A program made the translations under genes and the position numbers. Under the pieces are notes generated by a model. The model had not been told where the DNA came from, searched no databases, and worked only from the letters and a program-made list of their open reading frames with translations. From Actinomycetota bacterium (GTDB taxonomy: Bacteria > Actinomycetota > JAHEXW01 > JAGVPG01): DNA of 59,257 nucleotides. This document shows positions 2,161 to 56,593 of this stretch, piece after piece (the stretch's first letter is position 1; each line of letters starts with the position of its first letter). The stretch lies in assembly GCA_020052375.1 (NCBI GenBank), contig JAGVPG010000005.1:1-59257 (forward strand), in the 5' to 3' direction.

Positions 2161-3717
2161 TTGAATAACGTCAAGATCAACACCGCTCTTATCAGTGTCT
2201 CCAACAAAGAAGGCCTGGTCGACTTCGCCAGAGGATTGAACAAACACAAAGTCAAGATCATTTCTACGGGCGGAACGGCCGACTTACTGAAGAAAGAGGG
2301 AATACCGGTCGTTTCGATATCGGATGTCACCGGATTTCCGGAGATGCTTGACGGCAGGGTGAAAACGCTGCACCCGGCCGTTCACGGCGGGCTGCTTGCC
2401 AGGCGTGACAAGAAAGAACACATGGAACAGCTCAAGAAGCACGATATCAACCTGATCGATCTGGTCGTCGTAAACCTGTATCCTTTCAGCGAGACGATCA
2501 CCAAAAAGGATGTTAAAAAGGAAGAAGCGATCGAGAATATAGATATAGGCGGACCGAGTATGATCAGGAGCGCCGCAAAAAATGCGGATGCAGTGGCGGT
2601 CGTCGTCAATCCCGAGCGCTATCCGGAGATACTGAAGGAGCTGGACCAGACGGATGGCACGCTTAGCCTTGGAACGCGTGAAGAGCTGATGGTCGAGGCG
2701 TTCAAACATACAGCCGCCTACGATTCGACGATATTCAACTACTTTGCCAAGGGCGAATACTACTCGGACTTTCCGGATACTATGAACCTTGCGTTCAAGA
2801 AGATACAGGAACTGCGTTACGGTGAGAATCCGCACCAGAGGGCGGCATATTACCGGGAACTGAATCCGCCGCCACATTCGCTGGTCTTCGCCAAGAAACT
2901 TCACGGGAAAGAACTTTCGTTCAACAACATAATGGATATGGACGCCGCCTGGCGACTGGTAAATGATTTCACCGTACCTGCTTGTGTTGTCGTCAAACAC
3001 AATAACCCATGCGGAGTGGCGCTGGCGAAGGACATCGATACAGCGTATAAGAAGGCATGGGATGCCGATTCTCTAAGCGCATTCGGCGGAGTCGTCGCTG
3101 TTAACAGGCCTGTCGATATCGGCATCGCCGAACTGGCGAGCAAGGTGTTCATCGAGATAGTCATAGCGCCGGCTTTTCACGAGGAAGCAGTTGAGGTGTT
3201 GACACAGAAGAAAGACATCCGCCTGCTCGTCATGGATGAAGAGAGGATGCCGCACGGGAGCGAGAAAGACTACAAGAAAGTGGAGGGCGGATTGCTGGTA
3301 CAGGACGTCGACTTAGACAGGGGCGAACGGGATGAAATGCGTATCGTCTCGAAACGGCATCCGACCGAACCCGAGTGGGAGGACATGTTGTTTGCCTGGC
3401 GCGTTTCCAAACAGGTGAAATCAAATACGATCGTATACGCTAAAGACCTGGTTACAGTAGGTATCGGTGCCGGTCAGATGAGCCGCGTAGTCTCCAGCGA
3501 GATCGCGGCGATGAAAGCCGGCAAACTGGCCAAAGGAGCGGTTATGGCTTCGGACGCATTCTTCCCGTTCAGAGACGGTATCGATGCCGCGGCGAAAGCC
3601 GGCATCAAAGCGGTCATCCAACCGGGTGGATCAGTCAAAGACGACGAGGTCATCAAGGCCGCGAACGAGCACAAGATGGCGATGGTGTTTACCGGGATAC
3701 GCCACTTTAAACACTAA
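2161..3717 (+). CDS. purH: Bifunctional AICAR formyltransferase / IMP cyclohydrolase
   Basis: 518 residues, the normal length for PurH. It performs the last two steps of purine synthesis: formylation of AICAR with 10-formyl-THF, then ring closure to IMP. The N-terminal MGS-like cyclohydrolase domain (about 1-200) has the ISTGGTADLL phosphate-binding motif and GRVKTLHP. The C-terminal AICARFT domain has the RYGENPHQ and KHNNPCG motifs with the catalytic Lys-His pair. The start is TTG at 2161 with GGGAGGGG at 2147-2154. It follows the HAD gene by 46 bases in the same direction. Confidence 0.95.
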   Translation: MNNVKINTALISVSNKEGLVDFARGLNKHKVKIISTGGTADLLKKEGIPVVSISDVTGFPEMLDGRVKTLHPAVHGGLLARRDKKEHMEQLKKHDINLIDLVVVNLYPFSETITKKDVKKEEAIENIDIGGPSMIRSAAKNADAVAVVVNPERYPEILKELDQTDGTLSLGTREELMVEAFKHTAAYDSTIFNYFAKGEYYSDFPDTMNLAFKKIQELRYGENPHQRAAYYRELNPPPHSLVFAKKLHGKELSFNNIMDMDAAWRLVNDFTVPACVVVKHNNPCGVALAKDIDTAYKKAWDADSLSAFGGVVAVNRPVDIGIAELASKVFIEIVIAPAFHEEAVEVLTQKKDIRLLVMDEERMPHGSEKDYKKVEGGLLVQDVDLDRGERDEMRIVSKRHPTEPEWEDMLFAWRVSKQVKSNTIVYAKDLVTVGIGAGQMSRVVSSEIAAMKAGKLAKGAVMASDAFFPFRDGIDAAAKAGIKAVIQPGGSVKDDEVIKAANEHKMAMVFTGIRHFKH

Positions 3718-21614: not shown

Positions 21615-21738
21615 TGGTGGAGGTGAGGGGATATGAACCGCGGCGCCCGTATATTACGCGCCGCTTTCTTAGGGGAAACCAACGGTTTCCCCTAAGAGCC
21701 GCCCATCTTCGCTAAAGCTTAGATGGGCTACACCCCTT
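21615..21738 (-). pseudogene. Degenerate tRNA-Ala copy with inserted hairpins
   Basis: The 3' end and T-arm strand (21615-21639) match the intact tRNA-Ala at 21870-21894 in 24 of 25 bases, and GCTACACCCC at 21727-21736 matches its 5' end. Between them the normal arms are replaced by three strong hairpins, including a 13-bp stem with a 3-base loop near 21671-21699 (TTAGGGGAAACC with GGTTTCCCCTAA). The length is 124 bases instead of 75, and no anticodon arm remains. It is either a ruined tRNA gene or a tRNA-derived RNA. Confidence 0.55.
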
Positions 21739-21748
21739 CCTTACAATA

Positions 21749-21806
21749 GACAGCGGGGGAGAATCTCCCCCGCTGATTGAATACCCCCTCGTTCAAATCC
21801 CCTCAC
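21749..21806 (+). repeat. Scrambled tRNA-Ala pieces
   Basis: A 25-base near-palindrome (CAGCGGGGGAGA / TCTCCCCCGCTG) resembles the tRNA-Ala D-arm sequence CAGCGGGAGAG made into an inverted repeat. It is followed by GTTCAAATCCCCTCAC at 21791-21806, an exact copy of the tRNA T-arm 3' strand in the opposite orientation to the intact gene. Nothing else is recognisable between 21475 and 21869. Confidence 0.5.
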
Positions 21807-21818
21807 AATAAAAGCAAA

Positions 21819-21868
21819 AAGCTTCTGCTAATACCACGCATATTAGCCAATGGTATTAGCAGAAGCTT
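21819..21868 (-). terminator. Terminator of tRNA-Ala
   Basis: A perfect 18-bp stem (AAGCTTCTGCTAATACCA paired with 21851-21868) and 14-base loop start 1 base after the encoded CCA. On the minus strand the second arm runs into TTTTTGCTTTT, the T-run of a factor-independent terminator. Confidence 0.8.
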
Positions 21869-21869
21869 C

Positions 21870-21944
21870 TGGTGGAGGTGAGGGGATTTGAACCCCTGAC
21901 CCCTGCGATGCAAACGCAGTGCTCTCCCGCTGAGCTACACCCCC
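21870..21944 (-). tRNA. tRNA-Ala(TGC)
   Basis: 75 bases including the encoded CCA. The acceptor GGGGGTG pairs with CACCTCC, the D-arm begins TAGCTCAG, the anticodon loop TTTGCAT carries TGC, and the T-arm GGTTCAAATCC is normal. It is the intact member of the tRNA-Ala cluster at 21.6-21.9 kb. Confidence 0.97.
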
Positions 21945-44921: not shown

Positions 44922-44996
44922 GCGCCCGTAGCTCAATGGATAGAGCAACGGACTACGAATCCGTGTGTGGGGGTTCGACTCCCTCCGGGCGCGCCA
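44922..44996 (+). tRNA. tRNA-Arg(ACG)
   Basis: 75 bases with encoded CCA: acceptor GCGCCCG / CGGGCGC, anticodon loop CTACGAA (ACG), T-arm GGTTCGACTCC. The A34 of this tRNA is the substrate of TadA, encoded at 54454. Its last 18 bases (44979-44996) recur exactly at 49607 and 54221 and partly at 45312 and 45533. Confidence 0.97.
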
Positions 44997-45144
44997 TTCT
45001 TCGCCGACATTAGACTCACATCTATCGATGTTCGTCTTAACCGGCTATGAATGGCAGGCCACCTTAATTAATAGACAAGCGAAGAATGGTCCTTCGTAGC
45101 CGAATAGCCGAGCGTAGCGAGGCTCTCGCTGGCGAAGAAGGACC
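44994..45144 (+). repeat. Type I tRNA-linked structured element, copy 1
   Basis: Starts inside the tRNA CCA. CCATTCTTCGC (44994-45004) pairs perfectly with 45079-45089. Inside are a small hairpin, ACATC (45018-45022) with GATGT (45027-45031), and a core with GAATGGCAGGCC that offers an alternative partner for CCATTC. A second stem-loop follows: GGTCCTTC (45088-45095) with GAAGGACC (45137-45144). Related copies follow tRNA-Ser(CGA) and tRNA-Arg(CCG) with compensatory base changes. Confidence 0.75.
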
Positions 45145-45289
45145 AAGACATATAGCGATATGGCTTGACTCGGCCCTCACTCACGGCGTTTGGTGTCGTT
45201 GCGAAAAAGTGAGTGCTGCAACGCGCATCAAATTAAGCAGACAGCAATAAGCGATAGGCAATAAGCAATACGAGAAGATTTTTGTAGCA
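45145..45289. other. Non-coding stretch of the first array module
   Basis: No gene. It holds a tail-like sequence (ATATGGCTTGACTCGG...CTCACTCAC, 45160-45183) related to type II elements, a GTTGC/GCAAC hairpin around 45199-45222, and a run of AGCAATAAGC words. Confidence 0.5.
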
Positions 45290-45311
45290 GCCGACCCTTA
45301 GGTCGGCCTTT
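45290..45311 (+). terminator. Factor-independent terminator
   Basis: GCCGACC (45290-45296), CTTA loop, GGTCGGC (45301-45307), then CTTT. It ends just before the tRNA-end fragment at 45312 and would close transcription from tRNA-Arg(ACG). Confidence 0.7.
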
Positions 45312-45326
45312 CCTCCGGGCGCGCCA
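45312..45326 (+). repeat. tRNA-Arg(ACG) 3'-end fragment, site 2
   Basis: CCTCCGGGCGCGCCA, identical to the last 15 bases of the tRNA gene except that the longer 18-base match is lost at its left edge. No other tRNA sequence is present. A type II element starts in its CCA. Confidence 0.9.
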
Positions 45327-45475
45327 CTCACTATTAACTGTGAGTGCCCTCACAACTGAATGGTAATCTTCTCGCTTAGACCTCGTTTGTACGTGCTCTA
45401 GTCACGCTCGAAGAATACATTCAGTCGTGAGAGCACAGATGTATAAGTATCGTGGCTTGCCTAGGCCCTCGCTCA
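45325..45475 (+). repeat. Type II structured element, copy a
   Basis: P1: CACTCAC (45325-45331) with GTGAGTG (45340-45346). P2: 45344-45362 with 45418-45436, 17 of 19 positions paired (GTGCCCTCAC... / ...GTGAGAGCAC). P2 shares GTG with P1, so the two stems compete. It ends in the conserved tail AGATGTATA...GGCTTGCC...CTCGCTCA. Confidence 0.75.
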
Positions 45476-45510
45476 ACGGTGTAAAAAAGTGAAATGAATA
45501 ATTTGCGACT

Positions 45511-45542
45511 TCCTCCGCCTGCCGGCAGGTAGGGGCGCGCCA
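45511..45542 (+). repeat. tRNA-Arg 3'-end fragment split by a palindrome, site 3
   Basis: TCCTCCG (45511-45517), then a short insert with the palindrome CCTGCCGGCAGG, then GGGCGCGCCA (45533-45542). Together the outer parts rebuild the tRNA-Arg end, so a small palindromic element seems to have entered an earlier copy of the site. Confidence 0.65.
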
Positions 45543-45622
45543 CCACTGAACCGCAGTAATATCAACAACAAGCGGCTGCACCATGTTTGTCTCCTCAAGG
45601 TATCTAATCTCTATTGTTAGTT

Positions 45623-46145
45623 CCGCGGACGTAAGTCCGGGGGTGAATCGGGCTCCTAAGTCTTCAAAAGGTCAGATATAATGAAAAGACCATGGAGACG
45701 AGAAGACAAGCCCACTGTGTATACAGATGTGAGTATCATATAGTCTGGATTCCGAGATACAGATACAAGGTACTGACGAACGGGGTTGATAAATATCTGG
45801 AAATCAAACTTGATGAGGTCAGAAAGACGTACCTGGAGATAGAGTTCATCGAGAAGAAGATCCAACCGGATCATGTCCATCTCCTGGTGAGTTTTCCTCC
45901 CAAGCATAGCATCGCAAGGGTCGTTCAGATCCTGAAACAGAACACAGGCAAGGCGTTGAAAGACAAGTTTGATTTCCTGAAAGATAGATACTACGGTGCC
46001 GGAGGTATCTGGTCGGTCGGATACTTTGTATCGACAGTGGGCTTGAATGAGAACGCGATCAGAAACTATGTCCAGCACCAGGAGAAAGAAGACTTAGGAC
46101 AAGCGAAGCTTGAACTATAAGGAAACCACGGACGTAAGTCCGTGG
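45623..46145 (+). mobile_element. IS200/IS605-type insertion sequence (tnpA only)
   Basis: The body lies between two hairpins of like sequence: left CCGCGGAC-GTAA-GTCCGGGG (45623-45642, one mismatch) and right CCACGGAC-GTAA-GTCCGTGG (46126-46145). Such subterminal hairpins are bound by Y1 transposases. Exact ends are not certain; they lie shortly outside these hairpins. No tnpB is present. Confidence 0.8.
45692..46120 (+). CDS. tnpA: IS200/IS605-family Y1 transposase
   Basis: 142 residues, the usual TnpA size. The HUH motif is in PDHVHLLVSFPP and the catalytic Tyr in ENAIRNYVQHQ, both intact. These enzymes cut and join single-stranded DNA at hairpins. TATAAT at 45677-45682 stands 9 bases before the ATG and no ribosome site is seen, so the mRNA is probably leaderless. 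Related REP-associated enzymes move palindromic repeats, which matters given the many structured repeats nearby, but no direct link is shown. Confidence 0.93.
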   Translation: METRRQAHCVYRCEYHIVWIPRYRYKVLTNGVDKYLEIKLDEVRKTYLEIEFIEKKIQPDHVHLLVSFPPKHSIARVVQILKQNTGKALKDKFDFLKDRYYGAGGIWSVGYFVSTVGLNENAIRNYVQHQEKEDLGQAKLEL

Positions 46146-46240
46146 AGGTTCATTGCCGTATGCTATAGTTAGGTTAAGCCTGGAAATAGTCAATAGAACG
46201 TTGGGAAAGGCACGGAGTACGAATATATGTTTAAATTTCA

Positions 46241-47758
46241 ATGGGTTTAAGCTTCACGGGAAAAATCAGAATCATTCTTCTTGGCATTCTGTTGCTTATT
46301 TTATTTGCCTATCTTCCTTGGTTTTTCCTTGTAATCCTGATATTGAACTTTCTGCTTAGTATCGCCTCGCAGTCACTGCATTTTGTAGCCGCTGTTTTGC
46401 CTAAAGCTAAGATTGTAAAGGTGCCCTCTGTTGAGACACCTTTTGTTTCTATTCATGTTCCGTGCTACAACGAGCCCCCAGAGATCCTTAAGAACACCTT
46501 AATATCTCTTTCAAATTTGGACTATCAGAAATATGAGGTCATTGTAATTGACACTAATACAAAAGATAAGATGGTTTGGAAGCCGGTTGAAAAATACTGT
46601 GAGCTTCTTGGCGAGAAGTTCAGATTTTACCATGTAGACAAACTAGATGGGTTCAAAGCCGGGGCCTTGAACTATATTCAAGCAATGGTCAACCCCATGG
46701 CAGAATATGAAGCTGTAGTTGATGCTGATTATGAGGTAAAACCGGAGTTCGTTCATGAAGCATTAGGGTATTTCAGTGACGAAAAGATTGCCTTTGTCCA
46801 ATTTCCTCAAGCCTATTTCAACGTTTTTAAAAAGAACCTACCCATTGCTCTTGAATACCAATTCTTCTTTTTGTCCTATATGAATATGGCTAATATTATC
46901 AACTGTGTTAGTTCTACAGGCACGGTAACCTTCTACAAAATTGAACCGATGAAAGAAGTCGGGGTTTACAACGAAGAATGTATTACCGAAGACGCTGAGC
47001 TCGGGCTTAGAATTAATAGGTTTGGCTATAAAGGAATATTCGTTAACAAGGTTTTAGCGCGAGGATTGATTCCTTATGATCTCGAGGCCTTTAAGAAACA
47101 AAAGTCACGTTGGTGTTCTGGTAATGCTCAGATTCTAAGAAGCAATCTAAAAGATATGATCATCAATGCAAAAGAGATGACTATTCTTCAGAAGATAGGT
47201 TTTCTCACACAGCTTACAGCTTGGATCGATTTTCTCCTACTACCGATACTGACTCTTGTGGCAATCTTCTTTTATGAAAAATACGCGGTTGCCGCCTCAA
47301 ATCATTTGGTTTATGCCCTTATATATCTGACAGCAGCAATGACTCTCATAACATATTCATTCCTGAAGTTACTATCATTTTTGTTTGTTTTTAAAAGACA
47401 AGGCAAGCTTATCAGTAGTATTGGTGCCTATTTCGTGCATATCGGAATGAGCTGGCACTATGCAGTAGCATGGTTGGAAGGGATTTTCAGTAAGTCTATG
47501 TCTTTCCAGAGGACAAACAAATTCATCTTACCCACTATGCCAAATCTGATCAAGAATACTATATGTGAATTCACCCTTGGACTTTTAGCGCTCTTCATAT
47601 CTTTCCAGTATCTTATTGAAAGTAATTTCGTATCCTCGTTGATATATTTCTGGCTATTTGTCGTTCTATTTTCTGTATATTATGTTCATCTAAAAATCAG
47701 ACCAACTAAACTCTACTCAAAATCACTAATTGCTCGTTTTGCCAAAGAAGGTTTGTGA
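46241..47758 (+). CDS. Processive family 2 glycosyltransferase (cellulose-synthase-like)
   Basis: 505 residues. Two N-terminal helices, a GT2 catalytic domain (about 70-310) with the Asp motifs DADYEV and TEDAELG and the acceptor motif QKSRW, then about five C-terminal helices. It should polymerise a sugar from a UDP donor and pass the chain through the membrane. The gene is AT-rich compared with ugd and typA and lies in the tRNA-end array, so it was probably acquired. It is followed after 1 base by a GT4 gene. Confidence 0.88.
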   Translation: MGLSFTGKIRIILLGILLLILFAYLPWFFLVILILNFLLSIASQSLHFVAAVLPKAKIVKVPSVETPFVSIHVPCYNEPPEILKNTLISLSNLDYQKYEVIVIDTNTKDKMVWKPVEKYCELLGEKFRFYHVDKLDGFKAGALNYIQAMVNPMAEYEAVVDADYEVKPEFVHEALGYFSDEKIAFVQFPQAYFNVFKKNLPIALEYQFFFLSYMNMANIINCVSSTGTVTFYKIEPMKEVGVYNEECITEDAELGLRINRFGYKGIFVNKVLARGLIPYDLEAFKKQKSRWCSGNAQILRSNLKDMIINAKEMTILQKIGFLTQLTAWIDFLLLPILTLVAIFFYEKYAVAASNHLVYALIYLTAAMTLITYSFLKLLSFLFVFKRQGKLISSIGAYFVHIGMSWHYAVAWLEGIFSKSMSFQRTNKFILPTMPNLIKNTICEFTLGLLALFISFQYLIESNFVSSLIYFWLFVVLFSVYYVHLKIRPTKLYSKSLIARFAKEGL

Positions 47759-47759
47759 T

Positions 47760-48809
47760 ATGAGGATTGCTCAAATTGCGCCGTTGTGGAAAACAGTGCC
47801 GCCACAAAGATACGGAGGTGTGGAGCTCGCGGTCAGTAATATAACCGAGGGCCTGATCAAAAAAGGTCACGATGTCACGCTCTTTGCTTGCGGGGGATCA
47901 AAAACAAAGGGCAAATTGATAGAGGTTATTCAAGAACCGTTGTATGAATTAACTGGTAGTTTTTCCTGGAATGCTATATCTCCATACGAATTCCTGATGT
48001 ACTATGTCTTAGCCGAAAAGATAAGAAATGGAGAATTTGATCTGATACATAATCATCTTGGTTATCAGTTGCTTTCTTTTTCTCCGCTAATAGACATACC
48101 CATAGTAACAACCATGCATAGTAGTCTAGAACCTGATTTTCCTTATCTGGCAGAGAGATTTAAAAATCACAATTATGTTTCAATCAGTAATGCACAAAGG
48201 GAGCTGGCACCATATCTGAACTATGTTGAAACTATATACCATGGCTTGCAGAATTCAGAATATGAACCCAGATTATCAGGAGACAGCGACTATTATCTTT
48301 TCCTGGGCTCATTAACTAGAAACAAAGGAGTAGATATAGCTGTTAGGGCTGCAAAAGAACTCGGAATAAGACTGTTCTTAGCGGGAGAATTCAGGGAAAC
48401 AGAGAAAGATTTCTATGAGAAAGAGGTAGATCCCTATATCGATGGTAAGCAAATAAGAGTATTGGGTGAAGTCACAACAAAGGAGAAAAACAGATTATTG
48501 AGGGGCGCCAAGGCACTGCTGTTCCCCAGCCAGTGGAAAGAAGCTTTTGGTCTGGTTATCATAGAAGCTTTGACCTACGGAACCCCTGTAGTAGCCTATG
48601 GTAATGGCGCTGTTCCCGAAATAATAATCGAAGGAAAAACTGGATACATAGTAGACAACTATCATGATTTCAAATCCAAGATATTGGAGGTCGGAGGATT
48701 ATCTAGAAAGTCTTGTAGGAAAGAGGCAGAAGTAAGGTTTGATGTTTCTGTTGTGGTAGATAACTACATTGATTTGTTTGAAAAGTTAGTGAAAGGAAAT
48801 ACTCGCTAA
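47760..48809 (+). CDS. Family 4 glycosyltransferase
   Basis: 349 residues from ATG 47760 (MRIAQIAP), preferred to an upstream in-frame start because the GT-B fold begins there. N-terminal PPQRYGGVELAVSNI and C-terminal FPSQWKEAFGLVIIEAL contain the family residues, including the E-x7-E motif. It is a retaining nucleotide-sugar transferase, acceptor unknown. It works probably with the GT2 enzyme and, by inference, may use sugars from the ugd/uxs pair. Confidence 0.88.
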   Translation: MRIAQIAPLWKTVPPQRYGGVELAVSNITEGLIKKGHDVTLFACGGSKTKGKLIEVIQEPLYELTGSFSWNAISPYEFLMYYVLAEKIRNGEFDLIHNHLGYQLLSFSPLIDIPIVTTMHSSLEPDFPYLAERFKNHNYVSISNAQRELAPYLNYVETIYHGLQNSEYEPRLSGDSDYYLFLGSLTRNKGVDIAVRAAKELGIRLFLAGEFRETEKDFYEKEVDPYIDGKQIRVLGEVTTKEKNRLLRGAKALLFPSQWKEAFGLVIIEALTYGTPVVAYGNGAVPEIIIEGKTGYIVDNYHDFKSKILEVGGLSRKSCRKEAEVRFDVSVVVDNYIDLFEKLVKGNTR

Positions 48810-48822
48810 CCATTCTCTCACT

Positions 48823-48872
48823 TCGCGAGCACAGATGTATAGATGGCTTGCCGCAGCTCTCGCTCACTTCAG
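48823..48872 (+). repeat. Type II element tail without its head
   Basis: GAGCACAGATG, then TATAGATGGCTTGCCGC, then CTCTCGCTCAC: the conserved tail of the type II elements. The matching 5' half (tRNA end, P1, P2 5' arm) is missing; the GT4 stop codon is 14 bases upstream. Confidence 0.7.
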
Positions 48873-48928
48873 TCTTCAGTTCTTCATCCTTCAGCTCTCT
48901 TTCTGAGTGATATAATAAGCTCATATAC

Positions 48929-49434
48929 TATGAAGAGGTCTTTCGTTATTAAATGCTCAAAAAGTCCGTTATCTGGTTGTTGGGGGTTTAGCGGTAAATC
49001 TACACGGTGTTCCGCGGGCGACAATGGACCTCGATTTGATGATTGATACAGCGCGGAAAAACATCGAGACGTTCCTATCGGTCTTGAAGGAACTTGGTTA
49101 CAAGCCGAGGACTCAGGAGAATCCGCTCAATCTCGCTGATACCGAGAAGCGAGCAGAATGGCGGGCGAAGAAACACATGATCACATTCTCGTTCTATAAT
49201 CCCGAAGTGCCCTATCAACAGATAGACGTGTTTCTAAAGAACCCGGTCGACTTCGACGAAGCGGATAAAAACAAAGACATCGTAAGCGTTGAAGAAATGA
49301 AAATATTGATCATGTCATTGGACGATCTGGTGCGCATAAAACAGCAATCAAATCGTTTACAGGATGTTTCGGACGTGGAAGCGTTAAAACAAGTAAGACG
49401 TATTCAACAGGAGAACAAAGATGGAAGTCGCTAG
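48929..49434 (+). pseudogene. Nucleotidyltransferase, broken copy
   Basis: Same gene as the intact one at 53536. The start ATG is ATA (48927-48932 region) and one base is missing after CGTTATT, so the frame meets TAA within ten codons. The downstream frame from 49024 (MDLDLMIDTARKN...) is otherwise intact and ~88% alike in protein to the intact copy. The upstream TATAAT and CTTCAG-rich leader are conserved too. Confidence 0.85.
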
Positions 49435-49606
49435 GAAGCCTCCGGGATTTTGACAATACTATGAGCGCGATACGCTGGAGAAGTATATGGCGATGCCTGC
49501 CCGGATGAAGTTGCAATGGCTTGAAGAGATAAACCGGTTTCTCTATCAGGCGACGCCGGAGAAGAACAAGAACATTCAGCAGATGTTTCGCTCCGGCAAA
49601 ATCTAA
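49421..49606 (+). pseudogene. Partner of the nucleotidyltransferase, broken copy
   Basis: Begins ATGGAAGTCGC like the intact 61-codon partner at 54035, but codon 11 is TGA (49451-49453) where the intact copy has CGA. The rest is well conserved to the TAA at 49604-49606. The tRNA-Arg end fragment starts at the very next base. Confidence 0.85.
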
Positions 49607-49624
49607 CTCCCTCCGGGCGCGCCA
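49607..49624 (+). repeat. tRNA-Arg(ACG) 3'-end fragment, site 4
   Basis: CTCCCTCCGGGCGCGCCA, an exact 18-base copy of 44979-44996, directly after the TAA of the broken partner gene. Confidence 0.95.
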
Positions 49625-49746
49625 CTCAATAAGTGAGTGCTTAAAGACTGCGAGATGTTTTTCTCGCTAAAGAAATCACGCTCGAAAAATTCTCTCCGTC
49701 TTTAAACACGGATGTTTAGATGGCTTGCCACGAGCTCGCTCACGAC
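49623..49746 (+). repeat. Type II structured element, copy b
   Basis: P1: CACTCA (49623-49628) with TGAGTG (49634-49639). P2: GTGCTTAAAGAC (49637-49648) with GTCTTTAAACAC (49698-49709), 11 of 12 paired. Inner hairpin GCGAGA/TCTCGC from 49650. Tail GGATG...TAGATGGCTTGCC...CTCGCTCAC. The P2 sequence is unrelated to copies a and c, yet pairs. Confidence 0.8.
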
Positions 49747-50050
49747 GTTTGGTGTCGTTGCGAGGAGCAACGCTTGGCAGTGCGACGAAGCAATCTACGG
49801 AAAAGAAGAGAGTGTTTACTAGCTGCACAGGACCAGAAGGTCTTCCTCACAGACCTGGAGAATGCTCATAAAATCTAAGGTCAACTTCACTTATGTCGCC
49901 ACAAAACATTATCTACTCCTTCGCACTAAATGTATTTAATCCTGTTCTGTTCACAAAAACTAAACAAGCAATGAATGGCTTGCCACAAACTCGCTCACTG
50001 GAGTTTCTTTTCCTTGTCGTTATCGGGAGGAGGAAGCCCGAAAGGGCGGC
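49747..50050. other. Non-coding stretch with repeat family members
   Basis: No supported gene. It contains a GTCGTTGCGAGGAGCAACGC hairpin-type repeat (from 49756), a ~91-base direct repeat (49833-49923) shared with 53313-53403, and a further type II tail (49972-50000). Confidence 0.6.
49833..49923 (+). repeat. Direct repeat, left copy
   Basis: From CCAGAAGGTCTTCC to CTACTCCTTC; almost identical to 53313-53403 (few substitutions). It begins with a CCAG-GGTCT / AGACC-TGG hairpin. The two copies flank the ATPase and typA genes. Confidence 0.85.
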
Positions 50051-50113
50051 CGGTGTGACGATCAATGTAAACATACTTGACAAATAGTACGACTATATGA
50101 TAAGTATAGTAGC

Positions 50114-51277
50114 ATGATACAGAGACCTTTCTGGGTGTCGCGAATTGAAAAAGCATGGAGTCAAGCTCCAATTGTCTGGTTGACCGGGGTACGGCGCGTT
50201 GGCAAAACAACTATTGCGCAGAGTCTTGGTGACGACAAAGCTCAGTATCTAAACTGTGACCTGCCGGTTATCGCAGATATGACATCGGATCCAGAGTTGT
50301 TCTATCGAAACGTTGATCGCCCTATCCTGATATTTGACGAAGTTCACCAACTCTCCGATCCGAGCCGTTTGCTCAAGATAGGCGCGGATCTATTTCCACA
50401 TCTTAAGATTCTCGCTACAGGGTCATCAACTCTTGCGGCTAGCCGCGAGTTTAAAGATACCCTTACAGGCCGCAAAAGGGTTGTGTACCTAACACCGGTT
50501 ATGTGGGATGAACTCTTAGCCTTTAATGACTCACCACTGCTCAAGCGGCTATATCATGGGGGATTACCGCAGGCGCTGCTTTCGGAAAAGAAGGACCCAG
50601 GGTTCTACCGTGAATGGATGGATTCCTTCTTTGCCCGTGATATACAAAAACTTTTTGCCTTTCGCGACCCCCAGAAGTTCAACGCGTTATTTGAGTATAC
50701 GATGAAACAAAGCGGCGGTTTATTGGAAGTGACCAGTACAGCTGCCGCGCTCGGCATCAGCCGTCCCACAGTGGAGAGCCATTTGCAGGCTTTGGAAGCA
50801 ACTAATGCGCTGACATTGGTTCGGCCATATAACAGTAGACGCCAAAGCGAGATCATTAAAATGCCGAAGGCTTATACTTTTGATACCGGATTCGTGAGTT
50901 TCATGCGTGGCATGGATCCATTGCGGCCGGATGACTATGGCTTGCTTTGGGAGCATCTGGTCTTAGAGTATCTGCAAGCTCACGCACATGAATCGGATAT
51001 ATATTATTGGAGAGACAAGCACGATCACGAAGTCGACTTCGTTATCCCAGGAAGTCGTCAAGTCGTTGATGTCATCGAGTGCAAATGGAATCCGACACGC
51101 ATTGATGTGACCGCGATAAAGATGTTCCGTGATAGTTATCCTCAAGGTAATAATTATGTAGTGAGCCCGCTTCCTGGGAACGGATATCCGAAAAAAGTCT
51201 CCGGAATCGAGATATTCGTTTGCAATCCTGAAGGTTGGCGAAAACATAAATTCAACATTAAAGGGGGCAAGACCTAA
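50114..51277 (+). CDS. AAA ATPase with DUF4143 domain
   Basis: 387 residues. Walker A GVRRVGKTT, Walker B ILIFDEVHQL, sensor region ILATGSSTL, then a C-terminal DUF4143 part with a nuclease-like YWRDKHDHEVDFVI...VIECKW strand pattern. This is a common family of accessory ATPases of unknown role. TTGACA at 50077-50082 is a good -35 box, but the -10 is unclear. The gene lies inside the direct-repeat pair together with typA. Confidence 0.85.
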   Translation: MIQRPFWVSRIEKAWSQAPIVWLTGVRRVGKTTIAQSLGDDKAQYLNCDLPVIADMTSDPELFYRNVDRPILIFDEVHQLSDPSRLLKIGADLFPHLKILATGSSTLAASREFKDTLTGRKRVVYLTPVMWDELLAFNDSPLLKRLYHGGLPQALLSEKKDPGFYREWMDSFFARDIQKLFAFRDPQKFNALFEYTMKQSGGLLEVTSTAAALGISRPTVESHLQALEATNALTLVRPYNSRRQSEIIKMPKAYTFDTGFVSFMRGMDPLRPDDYGLLWEHLVLEYLQAHAHESDIYYWRDKHDHEVDFVIPGSRQVVDVIECKWNPTRIDVTAIKMFRDSYPQGNNYVVSPLPGNGYPKKVSGIEIFVCNPEGWRKHKFNIKGGKT

Positions 51278-51287
51278 CCTCAACAAT

Positions 51288-53111
51288 ATGAATATACGTA
51301 ATGTCGCAATAATCGCGCACGTCGACCACGGCAAGACCACGCTGGTAGACGGTCTCCTGAAGCAATCCAAAACGTTTCGCGAGAACGAAGCCGCTTTCTC
51401 CCAATCGCTGATCATGGACTCGAATGATCAGGAAAAGGAGCGCGGCATAACGATTTTGGCGAAGAACACGGCCGTCGATTACAAAGGCATGAAGATAAAC
51501 ATCATCGATACTCCCGGCCACGCTGATTTTGGCGGCGAAGTTGAAAGAATCCTGAACATGGCGGACGGCGCGATACTTATTATCGACGCGCAGGAAGGGC
51601 CGATGCCGCAAACCAAGTTTGTGCTTAAGAAGGCCCTGGAGATCGGCTTGTCGCTGATCGTCGTCATAAACAAGATAGATAAACGGGACGCAAGGGTAGA
51701 CGAGGTTATTGAAAAGACGCATGACTTGTTTCTGGATATGGCGACTGACGAGGCTCACCTGGATTTCCCGGTTTATTACGCAATCGGGCGTACCGGTAAA
51801 GCATGGGCCAAAATGCCGTCCGACTTCAATGAAGCTGCCGATCTAACCCCGATATTCGAGGCGATCGCCAGTCATGTGCCGCCGCCGCAGGCGGAAACCG
51901 ACAAGCATTTCCAGATGCTGATTGCCGCGCTCGACAGCGATACCTATCAGGGTAAATATGTGATCGGCCGGATCAGCCGGGGCAGCATAAGCTCCGGGAC
52001 GATCATTACTCTGCTCAAGAAAGACGGCACGGCGGAGCAAGCTAGCGTGGATAAGGTATATGTCAGTAAGGGTCTGAAAAGAATAGAAGTGCCCACAGCC
52101 GGGGCCGGTGATATCGTCGCTCTGACGGGTATCGGCAACGGCGGAATCGGAGAAACACTGGCTTGTATCAACCAGCCTGAAGCGCTGCCGGTGATCGAGA
52201 TAGAGGAACCCACCTTGAAGATCAGTGTGGCAGCCAACACCTCGCCGTTCGCCGGACAAGACGGCAAGTTTGTTACTAGCCGCCAGATCAAGCAGCGGAT
52301 AGTGAAAGAGCTGGAAACCAATGTCTCGTTAAAATCAGAGTCCGGCGATTCTGGCGAATTCATTTTGTCCGGTCGCGGTGAACTGCATCTCTCCGTATTC
52401 CTGGAGACATTGCGGCGTGAGGGTTATGAGTTCCAGGTCGGCAAGCCACAGGTCATAACAAAAATGTTAAGCGGAAAAGAGCACGAACCCGTCGAAGAAC
52501 TGATAGTCGATGTACCAGCCGAGTACGGAGGCACCGTGATCAGAGAAATCGGTGAGAGGAGAGGGGTCTTGCTGTCACAGGAAGACAACTCCGACTCGAC
52601 GATCCGGTTGATCTTTGAAATAACTACGCGGGGTTTACTGGGCTTGCGAAACCAGCTCCTGACGCAGTCCAAAGGCACCGTTGTCATGAATTCTATGTTC
52701 TTACGGTATCAAGCGATGGGATCCGCTATCCAGAAACTAAGAAACGGTGCTCTGATCAGCTCCGATAACGGGAAAGCGGTAGCGTACGGTTTGAGCAACG
52801 CGCAGGAGCGCGGCGTTCTATTCATCGAACCGCAGACTCCGGTTTATGCCGGTATGATAGTCGGTCTCCACACCCGCGATAACGACCTGCAGGTTAACGT
52901 TGCCAAGGTCAAGAAACTAACCAACATGCGCGCCGCCGGCGCGGACGACGCCATAATGCTGACACCGCCGACGATCCTTACGCTGGAACAAAGCCTCGAT
53001 TTCCTGGAAGATGACGAGCTGATGGAGGTTACGCCGAACAATCTCCGTCTGCGAAAAAAATCTCTTAACGCCAAACAGCGGGCGAAGGCCAAAAAGGAAT
53101 CCGGCAGTTAA
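51288..53111 (+). CDS. typA: Ribosome-associated GTPase TypA/BipA
   Basis: 607 residues. GTPase motifs: G1 AHVDHGKTTL, G3 DTPGHADF, G4 NKIDKRD; then EF-G-like domains II, III and V and the BipA-specific C-terminal domain (ISSDNGKAVAYGL). TypA binds the ribosome and helps 50S assembly under stress. As a core gene of normal length and codon use, its place between tRNA-end sites 4 and 5 shows that the array encloses host genes, not only foreign ones. Confidence 0.96.
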   Translation: MNIRNVAIIAHVDHGKTTLVDGLLKQSKTFRENEAAFSQSLIMDSNDQEKERGITILAKNTAVDYKGMKINIIDTPGHADFGGEVERILNMADGAILIIDAQEGPMPQTKFVLKKALEIGLSLIVVINKIDKRDARVDEVIEKTHDLFLDMATDEAHLDFPVYYAIGRTGKAWAKMPSDFNEAADLTPIFEAIASHVPPPQAETDKHFQMLIAALDSDTYQGKYVIGRISRGSISSGTIITLLKKDGTAEQASVDKVYVSKGLKRIEVPTAGAGDIVALTGIGNGGIGETLACINQPEALPVIEIEEPTLKISVAANTSPFAGQDGKFVTSRQIKQRIVKELETNVSLKSESGDSGEFILSGRGELHLSVFLETLRREGYEFQVGKPQVITKMLSGKEHEPVEELIVDVPAEYGGTVIREIGERRGVLLSQEDNSDSTIRLIFEITTRGLLGLRNQLLTQSKGTVVMNSMFLRYQAMGSAIQKLRNGALISSDNGKAVAYGLSNAQERGVLFIEPQTPVYAGMIVGLHTRDNDLQVNVAKVKKLTNMRAAGADDAIMLTPPTILTLEQSLDFLEDDELMEVTPNNLRLRKKSLNAKQRAKAKKESGS

Positions 53112-53523
53112 GCCCGCTCCCCTGTGCTAGAAAGAGTGTACATGGTTGGTATGTCGTTGCGAGGAGCAACGCGTGGCAGTGCGACGAAGCAATCTGCGGA
53201 AATAGAAAAGTGTGTGCTCAAGAAGTAGATAAAGTTTTTTAGCGACTGTTCGTTGTCCTTGATTTTGTTCTCATTTTCCAAGGTCGTTCGTAAGACTCTT
53301 TATTACGCATTACCAGAAGGTCTTCCTCACAGACCTGGAGAATGCTCATAAAATCTAAGGTCAACTTCACTTATGTCGCTATAAAACATTATCTACTCCT
53401 TCACACAAAATGAATTAGATGCTGTCTTATGCATAAAGACTGATTAAAGCAATAGATGGCTTACCGCAGCTCTCGCTCACTTCAGTCTTCAGTTCTTCAT
53501 CCTTCAGCTCTCTTTCTGAGTGA
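53112..53523. other. Non-coding stretch upstream of the nucleotidyltransferase pair
   Basis: It contains the GTCGTTGCGAGGAGCAACGC repeat (from 53152), the right copy of the direct repeat (53313-53403), a type II tail (about 53450-53480), and a CTTCAG-rich leader (53481-53515). No gene is supported. Confidence 0.6.
53313..53403 (+). repeat. Direct repeat, right copy
   Basis: Near-identical partner of 49833-49923; together they bracket about 3.4 kb with the ATPase and typA genes. Confidence 0.85.
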
Positions 53524-53529
53524 TATAAT
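53524..53529 (+). promoter_or_regulatory. -10 box of a leaderless nucleotidyltransferase mRNA
   Basis: TATAAT, then 6 bases, then ATG at 53536: the same spacing as at the response-regulator and ABC genes. No Shine-Dalgarno sequence is present between them. The broken copy keeps this box. Confidence 0.65.
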
Positions 53530-53535
53530 AATCTC

Positions 53536-54048
53536 ATGTACTATGAAGAGGCCTTTCGTTATTTAGATGCTCAAAAAGTCCGTTATCTGGTTGTTGGGGG
53601 TTTAGCGGTAAATCTACACGGTGTTCCGCGGGCGACAATGGACCTCGATTTGATGATCGATACGGCGCGGAAAAACATCGAGACGTTTATCTCGGTCTTG
53701 AAAGAAATTGGCTTCAAGCCGAGGATCCAGGAGAATCCGCTGAGTCTTACCGATACCGGCAAGCGAGCCGAATGGCGCGCGAAGAAACATATGATCACAT
53801 TCTCGTTCTATAATCCCGAAGTGCCTTATCAACAGGTAGATGTGTTTATCGAGAATCCGATCGACTTCAACGAAGCGTATAATAGAAAAGAGATCGTAAG
53901 TGTTGGAGATGTAAGAATACCGATTCTATCATTGAACGACCTGGTTCGTATCAAACAGTTGTCGAATCGTCTGCAGGATGTTTCGGATGTAGAGGCGCTG
54001 AAGCAGGTGAGGCGCATTCAAAAGGAGAACGAAAATGACCGTCGCTAG
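53536..54048 (+). CDS. Minimal nucleotidyltransferase, intact copy
   Basis: 170 residues. The pol-beta fold is shown by VVGGLAVNLHG and TMDLDLMID, the GG-x and D-x-D motifs that bind NTP and metal. The C-terminal part (VPYQQVDVFIENPIDF...LNDLVRIKQLSNRLQDVSDVEAL) matches DUF6036/AbiEii-type proteins. Such enzymes include toxins that modify tRNA or other targets. It overlaps a 61-residue partner by 14 bases. A broken copy of the pair is at 48929-49606. A toxin-antitoxin role is inference; the tRNA-rich setting is suggestive only. Confidence 0.8.
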   Translation: MYYEEAFRYLDAQKVRYLVVGGLAVNLHGVPRATMDLDLMIDTARKNIETFISVLKEIGFKPRIQENPLSLTDTGKRAEWRAKKHMITFSFYNPEVPYQQVDVFIENPIDFNEAYNRKEIVSVGDVRIPILSLNDLVRIKQLSNRLQDVSDVEALKQVRRIQKENENDRR

Positions 54049-54220
54049 GAAGCCTCCGGGATTTCGACAATACTACACTCGCGAAACGCTACAGATGTAT
54101 ATGACGATGTCCGCACGGTTGAAGCTGCAGTGGCTTGAAGAGATCAACTACTTTCTCTATCAGGCGACACCGGAGAAGAACAAGGTCATTCAGCAGATGT
54201 TCCGCTCCGGCAAAATCTAA
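54035..54220 (+). CDS. Small partner protein of the nucleotidyltransferase
   Basis: 61 residues (MTVARKPPGFRQYYTRETLQ...). Basic and helical, no recognised family. AGGAG stands before the ATG. It is kept next to the nucleotidyltransferase in both copies with the same overlap, so the two are a functional pair. The tRNA-Arg end fragment starts at the base after its TAA, as in the broken copy. Confidence 0.7.
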   Translation: MTVARKPPGFRQYYTRETLQMYMTMSARLKLQWLEEINYFLYQATPEKNKVIQQMFRSGKI

Positions 54221-54238
54221 CTCCCTCCGGGCGCGCCA
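54221..54238 (+). repeat. tRNA-Arg(ACG) 3'-end fragment, site 5
   Basis: CTCCCTCCGGGCGCGCCA, exact 18-base copy of 44979-44996. Confidence 0.95.
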
Positions 54239-54383
54239 CTCTATTATCTGTGAGTGCCCGCGGGCTGCATAAAATTTTGCTTCATGTGACGTCACTTGGC
54301 TTGCTGAAAGTCACATTCAGCAATAGTTTATTCCTCCCGCGGGCACAGATGTATAGATGGCTTGCTACGGGCTCGCTCACTAG
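54237..54383 (+). repeat. Type II structured element, copy c
   Basis: P1: CACTC (54237-54241) with GAGTG (54252-54256). P2: GTGCCCGCGGG (54254-54264) with CCCGCGGGCAC (54336-54346), 11 of 11 paired. Between them are further hairpins (GTGAC/GTCAC; TTGCTGAA-type). The tail AGATGTATAGATGGCTTGC and CTCGCTCAC closes it. tadA starts 70 bases later. Confidence 0.8.
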
Positions 54384-54453
54384 AGTTGGTATTCAAACGG
54401 GTTTAACGCTATATTAATGTCAAGTTTTTGTGCTCTTAACAAGGAGCGACTAA

Positions 54454-54924
54454 GTGATCCAAGAGATTCTACCGCAAGACGAACAGTATATGAACTATGC
54501 CCTGGTGCTGGCCGAGCAGGCATTCGAAGAAGGCGAGGTGCCTATCGGTGCCGTTGTGATGAAGGATGGCGTGGTCATAGGGCGCGGGTACAATCAGGTC
54601 GAGATGAAGGAGAACCCGACGGCGCATGCTGAGATGATAGCTATCCGCGAGGCCTCGATCAAGCTGCTGAACTGGAGACTTACTGATTGTACGCTTTACG
54701 TTACTAAAGAACCATGCCCGATGTGCGCGGGAGCGATATATCTTTCCAGGATAAGGCGTCTTGTCTACGGTGCTTCCGACGACAAATCGGGGTATGCCGG
54801 AAGCCTTCACAATACGGTACAGGACGCACGGCTGAATCACCACGTAGATGTAGTGGCCGGAGTCCTTGCCGACAAATCCCGCGACCTTCTCCAAAGATTC
54901 TTCTCCGACCTCCGCGACAAATAA
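54454..54924 (+). CDS. tadA: tRNA adenosine(34) deaminase
   Basis: 156 residues. The zinc-deaminase motifs HAEMIAI (ligand His and catalytic Glu) and PCPMCAGAI (two Cys) are intact. TadA converts A34 to inosine in tRNA-Arg(ACG), whose gene lies 9.5 kb upstream. GTG start with AAGGAG 7 bases before it. Two tRNA-Ser genes follow. Confidence 0.95.
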   Translation: MIQEILPQDEQYMNYALVLAEQAFEEGEVPIGAVVMKDGVVIGRGYNQVEMKENPTAHAEMIAIREASIKLLNWRLTDCTLYVTKEPCPMCAGAIYLSRIRRLVYGASDDKSGYAGSLHNTVQDARLNHHVDVVAGVLADKSRDLLQRFFSDLRDK

Positions 54925-55032
54925 GACATTCCGCCTAATCTGAAAGACAGCTATACGCTATAATATGATTTTGCGTACTCGCTTTACTGTATGTTGTTAG
55001 TTGTAAGTTGTTTGTTGTTAGTACGCGAAGCG

Positions 55033-55124
55033 GGAGGGGTCGCATAGAGGCCGAGTGCACGCGACTGGAAATCGCGTGAGCGGTGTGAGCTGCTCCGTGG
55101 GTTCGAATCCCACCCCCTCCGCCA
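55033..55124 (+). tRNA. tRNA-Ser(GGA)
   Basis: 92 bases with encoded CCA: acceptor GGAGGGG / CCCCTCC, anticodon loop CTGGAAA (GGA), long variable arm, T-arm GGTTCGAATCC. Preceded by a GTTGTTAGTTGT-type spacer. Confidence 0.96.
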
Positions 55125-55146
55125 TCCATCGTTAGATGGATGGCGG
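55119..55146 (+). other. Hairpin that includes the tRNA-Ser(GGA) CCA end
   Basis: CCGCCATCCATC (55119-55130) pairs perfectly with 55135-55146 across GTTA. It is one base pair shorter than the hairpin at tRNA-Ser(TGA), with loop changes, yet both arms stay complementary. The spacer that follows (GGATAACAAACA...) is also shared with that locus. Confidence 0.8.
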
Positions 55147-55207
55147 ATAACAAACAACAGACAACTAACAACTGAAGTTTGTTGTTAGTTGTTAGTTCGC
55201 GAAGCGC

Positions 55208-55452
<245 letters not shown>

Positions 55453-55503
55453 GGAACGGTTGATAATAGATAAAAGAGTTGGGCTTAGTTTTGGGGGAAC
55501 GAA

Positions 55504-56417: not shown

Positions 56418-56492
56418 GCGCCTGTAGCTCAGTGGATAGAGCACCGGCCTCCGGAGCCGGGTGCGCAGGTTCGAATCCTGTCAGGCGCGCCA
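56418..56492 (+). tRNA. tRNA-Arg(CCG)
   Basis: 75 bases with encoded CCA: acceptor GCGCCTG / CAGGCGC, anticodon loop CTCCGGA (CCG), T-arm GGTTCGAATCC. Begins 6 bases after the ferritin stop. Confidence 0.97.
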
Positions 56493-56579
56493 TCCTTCGC
56501 GGTTAGACTCCAGTTTAGAAACTGTCGTCTTTTTGCGTGCTTCGGATGGCAGGCCAGTTATATTCAATAAAGCGAAGGG
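56490..56579 (+). repeat. Type I tRNA-linked structured element, copy 3
   Basis: Most diverged copy. CCTTCGC (56494-56500) pairs with GCGAAGG (56572-56578). CCATCC (56490-56495, from the tRNA CCA) pairs with the core GGATGG (56544-56549), where copies 1 and 2 have CCATTC and GAATGG: a compensated change. Inner hairpin CAGTTT (56511-56516) with AAACTG (56519-56524). The core TGGCAGGCCA is kept. Confidence 0.72.
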
Positions 56580-56593
56580 CAGACTTATATTGG

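Follow-up and report, generated by a model that had tools for sequence, protein, structure and literature searches.

A stretch of 59,257 nucleotides (nt) from an Actinomycetota bacterium (contig JAGVPG010000005.1 of assembly GCA_020052375.1), referred to here as the window, carries behind an intact transfer RNA (tRNA) gene, tRNA-Arg(ACG), an array in which the last 18 bases of this tRNA are repeated, with structured elements and genes lying in between. This array is probably what remains, after decay, of insertions stacked up behind a single tRNA gene, at its 3' end, and not an integron. Three kinds of element are involved: type I hairpins, which start in the CCA of a tRNA; type II elements, which follow most of the repeated tails; and X elements, noncoding segments that separate a complete tRNA from a copy of its own 3' tail. 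On the best reading, every tail copy either was once the end of a tRNA or imitates one, and most still have a CCA-anchored hairpin.

Repeated tails and type II elements behind tRNA-Arg(ACG)

The tail 18-mer (CTCCCTCCGGGCGCGCCA) matches the window exactly at 44979, which is the tRNA itself, and at 49607 and 54221; the segment 45309-45326 differs from it by two mismatches, which leaves a 15-mer at 45312. Only 0.03 matches to the 18-mer are expected in shuffled sequence of the window, and four were never obtained. The repeats are real and far above chance, as had been noticed in a first-pass annotation made from the letters alone. The split copy reported there was also recovered, with refined limits (Table 1) and a palindromic insert that opens it. 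The same annotation held that only the 3' end of the tRNA is copied. When the whole genome (1.64 Mb, 35 contigs) was searched, the 18-mer was matched at a single further place, where one base differs: the end of a genuine tRNA-Arg(TCT) on contig C31. Genome-wide counts, here and below, come from searches and from extracted stretches of the genome. The copies at 49607 and 54221 are actually 19 nt long (ACTCCC...); the A that leads them also closes the TAA stop codon of a small open reading frame (ORF) just upstream.

The type II body (GTGAGTGC...GCACAGATGTATA) has variable stems and starts some 6-13 nt after the CCA. Type II elements had been described as starting in the CCA, which holds for the predicted outer stem of the copy at 54236, since this stem pairs back to the CCA, but not for the repeated body. 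The plan of tail followed by type II element needs a similar refinement: the tRNA itself precedes a type I element, and no type II element follows the split copy. Type II bodies also occur behind tRNA-Gln(CTG), tRNA-Gln(TTG), tRNA-Arg(CCT) and some protein genes, and complete sites with the end GGCTTGCC...CTCGCTCAC are confined to this locus, as judged by a genome-wide search with the 3'-end pattern. Type I and type II elements share with miniature inverted-repeat transposable elements (MITEs) and repetitive extragenic palindromic (REP) elements that they are short, palindromic, dispersed and devoid of an ORF, apart from type I copies that lead an ORF for a GIY-YIG protein. None of type I, type II and X matched an Rfam family, and neither the type II core nor the X core was found in viral contigs. 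Mobilisation of the hairpins by an IS200-like element was considered but is not supported: the hairpin ends of the IS200 copy in the window (GGACGTAAGTCC) differ from those of type I and type II. Besides this mismatching IS200, no transposase-bearing parent with type I or type II ends was found, although no genome-wide search for one was made.

Recombinases and the integron alternative

The annotation had likened the array to integron cassettes or stacked tRNA-targeted integrations and had seen no integrase in the window. The latter statement is correct, and within the array no remnant of an integrase was recognised either. In the genome, which is about 95% complete, a search with PF00589 returned three proteins, two XerC/D-like ones and a phage-type integrase beside tRNA-Gly; the integron integrase IntI was not among these tyrosine recombinases. 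attC sites have R'/R'' boxes (GTTRRRY / RYYYAAC); a pattern search likewise revealed no GTTRRRY motif at a distance of up to 30 nt from any tail or type II end. An integron-like array that uses tRNA tails as attachment sites would fit the position of a site right after a stop codon, the conserved ends with variable stems and the genes between the sites, but because neither IntI nor attC boxes at the junctions were found, it is rejected. Since, in addition, the segments hold several genes and a core gene, this explanation is hardly credible. The other half of the comparison, stacked integration at a tRNA, is favoured by tail copies at other tRNAs and, in one relative out of two from the same genus, at the orthologous tRNA (see below).

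Direct repeats equal to the tRNA 3' end are a trait of tRNA-integrated islands, and the array has them. The tails could be the attachment sites of one or more conventional tyrosine-recombinase islands that integrated in tandem at tRNA-Arg(ACG), with the integrase lost and the hairpins as unrelated passengers. Partial 3' copies of a tRNA are the usual product of such integration (PMC9897764), and the genome has its own example at tRNA-Gly(CCC), where a 384-amino-acid (aa) phage-type tyrosine integrase adjoins the tRNA in an 8.1-kb span that ends in its tail copy (G000:C23, L059 1430-9635). This explanation is nevertheless improbable, given that the array has no recognised integrase or remnant and that a hairpin stands behind each unsplit tail copy, which tandem integration alone does not predict.

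X elements and comparison with relatives

Tail copies lie behind several other tRNAs of the genome, so the Arg array is one case of several. Behind tRNA-Ala(TGC), tRNA-Thr(TGT), tRNA-Tyr and tRNA-Met, the complete tRNA is followed by a noncoding X element of 247-259 nt that ends in the tail copy of that very tRNA, and about 430 nt downstream of tRNA-Gln(TTG) its tail is partly repeated. Six of eight X elements contain a segment of 13-15 nt complementary to the T-arm of their own tRNA; matches to unrelated tRNAs mostly extend over 4-8 nt and reach 10-12 nt where the T-arms are alike. X elements do not match the Rfam group I intron family RF00028, for which an intron in the transfer-messenger RNA (tmRNA) gene of the same genome scores 45.6 bits.

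Two genomes of the same order, G001 and G002, were compared at orthologous tRNA genes. The orthologous tRNA-Arg(ACG) is empty in G002, with 11 nt to tRNA-Ser(GCT), and in G001, of the same genus, it is followed by an X element that ends in a second tail copy. Filled and empty states of this site have therefore been observed for X together with its tail copy. Further differences concern tRNA-Gly(TCC), which has an X element in G001 only, and tRNA-Lys(CTT) and tRNA-Ser(GCT), which have type I elements in G002 only. With up to three mismatches allowed, the X core was found in its own genome only among 397 genomes of the phylum; the diverged X elements of G001 and G002 were located via the tRNA-Arg orthologues.

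Type I elements at tRNA ends across phyla

Alignment of 13 genomic copies gives the type I consensus CCAxxCTTCG...GxxTGGCAGGCCA. In the second half, the complement of the 5' arm is repeated (GCGAAGxxTG) and then runs into a second hairpin. The genome was searched with an 18-nt pattern free of tRNA sequence, and most matches lie behind tRNA genes of differing specificity and start in their CCA. At tRNA-Lys(TTT) and tRNA-Met, the type I locus includes a GIY-YIG gene.

Two side observations concern type I copies of this genome. The tmRNA gene (G000:C26, L010 829-1452) is split in its T-loop by the group I intron mentioned above, whose score is just below the gathering score, and a type I element starts in the CCA of its 3' exon. 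A second series (G000:C29, L063 5900-12300) consists of an AbiEi/AbiEii-like pair, an MNT/HEPN-like pair and a small membrane protein, all named by reading only; each of the three is followed by a near-identical, tail-like site (AGTYCCAATTGTGACTRCTYAAGTCCACCA), of which two run into type I and the third begins like type I.

A core pattern that contains neither CCA nor tRNA sequence was searched in 85,462 species genomes and yielded at least 107 loci. CCA precedes 53 of the 107 listed matches, about 1.7 being expected under even base composition. Among the matches listed, the predicted stem is formed by 47 of the 53 that follow CCA and by 7 of the 54 others, counting one match per locus, with many matches stemming from incomplete metagenome assemblies. 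A separate scan that required the stem gave 51 elements, 41 of which abut a tRNA predicted by ARAGORN; the other ten, classified by reading, lie at tmRNA ends, a truncated tRNA or tail-like copies, except for two (L133 and L144). The hosts include Deltaproteobacteria, Verrucomicrobia, Planctomycetota, Dependentiae, Omnitrophica, Acidobacteria, Patescibacteria groups and rhizobia. Neither type I core strings nor descriptions of such an element were found in the open-access papers searched, subscription journals and preprints being outside this scope. Judged against this literature and Rfam, type I hairpins apparently form an undescribed cross-phylum family.

In 14 of the 51 elements, the next gene on the same strand encodes a stand-alone GIY-YIG protein of 80-95 aa; PF01541 was confirmed for the four proteins tested. 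The role of GIY-YIG proteins in type I is an association. A single mechanism by which every GIY-YIG unit duplicates the tail is not supported, a tail copy behind the ORF being present at only 2 of 16 loci tested.

Orthologous sites with and without hairpins were also found in Mesorhizobium. Among 81 genomes from the genus of Mesorhizobium sp. WSM4313, many lose homology around one tRNA-Leu as soon as the CCA is reached or shortly beyond it. The site is empty at L268 and L283, and others have one to four hairpin units. One locus (L263) contains a 1.35-kb insert that includes a long ORF; behind it come an 18-nt tail copy, the hairpin and the common flank. This is the closest parallel to the window: inserted DNA has displaced the old tail and its hairpin. 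The first-pass annotation had proposed that gain or loss of modules in relatives would bear on mobility, and the comparison favours mobility for X at tRNA-Arg(ACG) and for type I elements, both at further tRNAs within the order and at the Mesorhizobium tRNA-Leu.

It is conceivable that the CCA-anchored hairpins are not mobile and serve as tRNA 3' trailers, that is, processing or termination signals kept by selection. Their exact placement at the CCA would fit, as would the covariation of the variable stem positions of type I (0.339 versus 0.076 shuffled, 0/500) and the hairpins that begin at or near the CCA of many other tRNAs in the genome. Identical conserved motifs in distant phyla, occurrence at some but not all orthologous tRNAs of a genus, the link to a GIY-YIG ORF and the hairpins on dead tail copies all speak against such a function, which is improbable.

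Origin of the array

A stack of insertions would have arisen as follows. Small structured elements (type I and type II) would insert at the CCA and leave the tRNA intact, type I starting in the CCA itself. Larger insertions would enter at the tRNA tail, with the tRNA keeping or regaining its tail, and each of them would displace the earlier tail and hairpin downstream. Repetition would yield the succession of tRNA, element, old tail with hairpin, genes, and again old tail with hairpin, which would afterwards decay. We infer this order of events for the Arg locus from its present layout. A recombinase, since lost or acting in trans, may have brought in the gene-bearing segments, and the GIY-YIG nuclease linked to type I may cut near the tRNA 3' end and drive the spread.

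Several observations weigh against a stack of insertions. The array holds no recombinase gene, and the segments between the tails are glycosyltransferases, a relocated core gene and a decayed module, not recognisable mobile elements. The tail copies in the Arg array are 19 nt long and devoid of the X right end seen at other tRNAs. A GIY-YIG gene is linked to just 14 of the 51 type I elements, and the rarity of tail copies behind GIY-YIG ORFs points the same way. The comparison rests on relatives outside this species. Finally, the homology of modules A and B and the direct repeats around the ATPase and typA imply that part of the series may be a segmental duplication.

This last point leads to a serious rival. 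A single insertion, consisting of a nucleotidyltransferase pair, the tRNA-Arg tail and a type II element, may have been followed by tandem duplication, gene conversion and recombination between repeats, which also brought in typA. Homology between modules A and B runs from end to end and takes in the 18-mer, and the noncoding flanks upstream of the two are nearly identical. Alignment with module B reveals a frameshift near the start of module A and an in-frame TGA in its small ORF, which make it a pseudogene, and direct repeats lie on either side of ATPase and typA. A single insertion would on its own leave unexplained the copy at 45312, the split copy and the considerable differences among the type II elements that follow three of the tails. 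Divergence between A and B is clearly greater in the coding parts than in the upstream flank they have in common, and the combination of tail and hairpin is seen again behind further tRNAs and in further phyla. Serious as it stays, this course of events is rather unlikely.

The position of typA had been taken as an argument against islands, an argument that does not exclude stacking. In both G001 and G002, typA lies in a different gene block, and together with the direct repeats that flank ATPase and typA this means that local rearrangement can explain its position. That typA now stands between two tails is best attributed to a rearrangement in this lineage and not taken as proof against mobility.

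A wider interpretation is tentative. Type I and X may belong to an undescribed class of mobile elements found across phyla, whose members would recognise tRNA and tmRNA genes by their 3' half, have the CCA as their exact point of insertion and rely on a small GIY-YIG nuclease for their spread. X would add a T-arm guide, so that base pairing may guide targeting or splicing, and the array in the window would be one decayed stack of such events.

Other features of the window

The features of the window are collected in Table 1. The nucleotidyltransferase of module B, used as a protein query against genome contigs, found no relatives. A block that resembles the D3 repeat also lies behind tRNA-Gln(TTG). 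A dispersed repeat (TGTCGTTGCGAGGAGCAACG...GACGAAGCAATCT) occurs in the window at 49754-49803 and 53152-53202, and also at positions 3549 and 3702 of L100. Long inverted repeats of the type GTTGTTAGTTG / CAACTAACAAC flank some tRNA genes (window 54993-55172; L004 1000-1830). The gene at 1107-2114 contains a repetitive stretch, KEIEEIKEIEE, at 1458-1691.

Table 1. Features of the tRNA-Arg(ACG) array and related elements in the window
Feature	Position	Strand	Basis and remarks
X element	21615-21869	-	between tRNA-Ala(TGC) (21870-21944) and its 3' tail copy; has T-arm-complementary segment
tRNA-Arg(ACG), intact	44922-44996	+	ARAGORN; Rfam tRNA 68 bits; final 18 nt (44979-44996) are the repeated tail
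Type I element behind tRNA-Arg(ACG)	44994-45147	+	CCATTCTTCG..GAATGGCAGGCCA..GCGAAGAATGG, second hairpin TCCTTCGTAGCC..GGCGAAGAAGGACC; no ORF
Remnant like 3' end of type II site	45160-45184	+	ATGGCTTGACTCGGCCCTCACTCAC; sequence similarity
15-nt tail copy	45312-45326	+	palindromic sequence replaces left part
Type II element 1	45324-45475	+	CCACTCAC..GTGAGTGCCC..GCACAGATGTATA..GTGGCTTGCC..CTCGCTCA; fold
Split tail copy	45512-45542	+	opened by palindromic insert; no type II element behind
IS200-like insertion sequence	45623-46145	+	own hairpin ends; Y1 transposase 45692-46120, PF01797 108 bits
Two glycosyltransferase genes	46241-48809	+	46241-47758 GT2-like, 47769-48809 GT1-like (Pfam)
Module A	48827-49606	+	type II 3' remnant 48827-48867 and decayed nucleotidyltransferase pair; aligned to module B
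Exact tail copy	49607-49624	+	preceding base is part of module A TAA stop
Type II element 2	49622-49743	+	core TCTCGCTAAAGAAATCACGCTCGAAAAA
Direct-repeat block, first copies	49753-49998	+	D12 and D3 repeats (repeat search); ends in type II 3' end
AAA_14/DUF4143 ATPase	50114-51277	+	Pfam
typA/bipA	51288-53111	+	Pfam; single copy at threshold searched
Direct repeats, second copies	53152-53480	+	end in type II 3' end (repeat search)
Module B, intact	53536-54220	+	DUF6036 nucleotidyltransferase 53536-54048 and 61-aa partner 54035-54220; Pfam
Exact tail copy	54221-54238	+	immediately 3' of module B stop codon
Type II element 3	54236-54385	+	fold -67.7 kcal/mol
tadA	54454-54924		after type II element 3
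Type I element	55297-55454	+	begins in CCA of tRNA-Ser(CGA)
Type I element	56490-56582	+	begins in CCA of tRNA-Arg(CCG)

Comparison with known systems

Chromosomal integrons resemble the array in having structured sites in series with genes in between and differ from it in their IntI and attC boxes. Genomic islands and integrative and conjugative elements (ICEs) that tyrosine recombinases have integrated in tRNA genes are bounded by a complete tRNA on one side and by a partial repeat of that tRNA's 3' end on the opposite side (PMC9897764). The same layout is found here, including the integrase-bearing case at tRNA-Gly(CCC), but the array has no integrase, its tails are serial with a hairpin at the CCA of each unsplit one, and X is an element of about 250 nt without an ORF. 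REP elements and MITEs are likewise short, palindromic, dispersed and geneless; type I, in contrast, starts almost only in the CCA of tRNA and tmRNA ends, and behind some of its copies lies a GIY-YIG ORF. Free-standing GIY-YIG genes (PF01541) also encode stand-alone proteins of 80-95 aa, whereas those described here are tied to a conserved leader that starts in the CCA of a tRNA, an element not met in the open-access literature searched. Group I introns in the T-loop of tmRNA are a further known system (PMC11915505). The 13-15-nt segment by which X is complementary to its own T-arm is what an internal guide sequence would look like, but X is unmatched by the group I introns of Rfam and follows a complete tRNA. 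The putative T-arm guide raises the question of whether insertion or removal is steered by base pairing, be it of DNA or of RNA.

More generally, tRNA genes are known landing sites of mobile DNA, but a known integrase is as a rule specific for a single tRNA sequence or a small number of them. If one family starts in the CCA of many different tRNAs, and also of tmRNA, in phyla far apart, it must recognise its targets by a principle that does not depend on the acceptor-stem sequence. Such a CCA-directed family could explain many of the partial tRNA copies and hairpins behind tRNA genes, and its mode of recognition can be tested with a nuclease of fewer than 100 residues.

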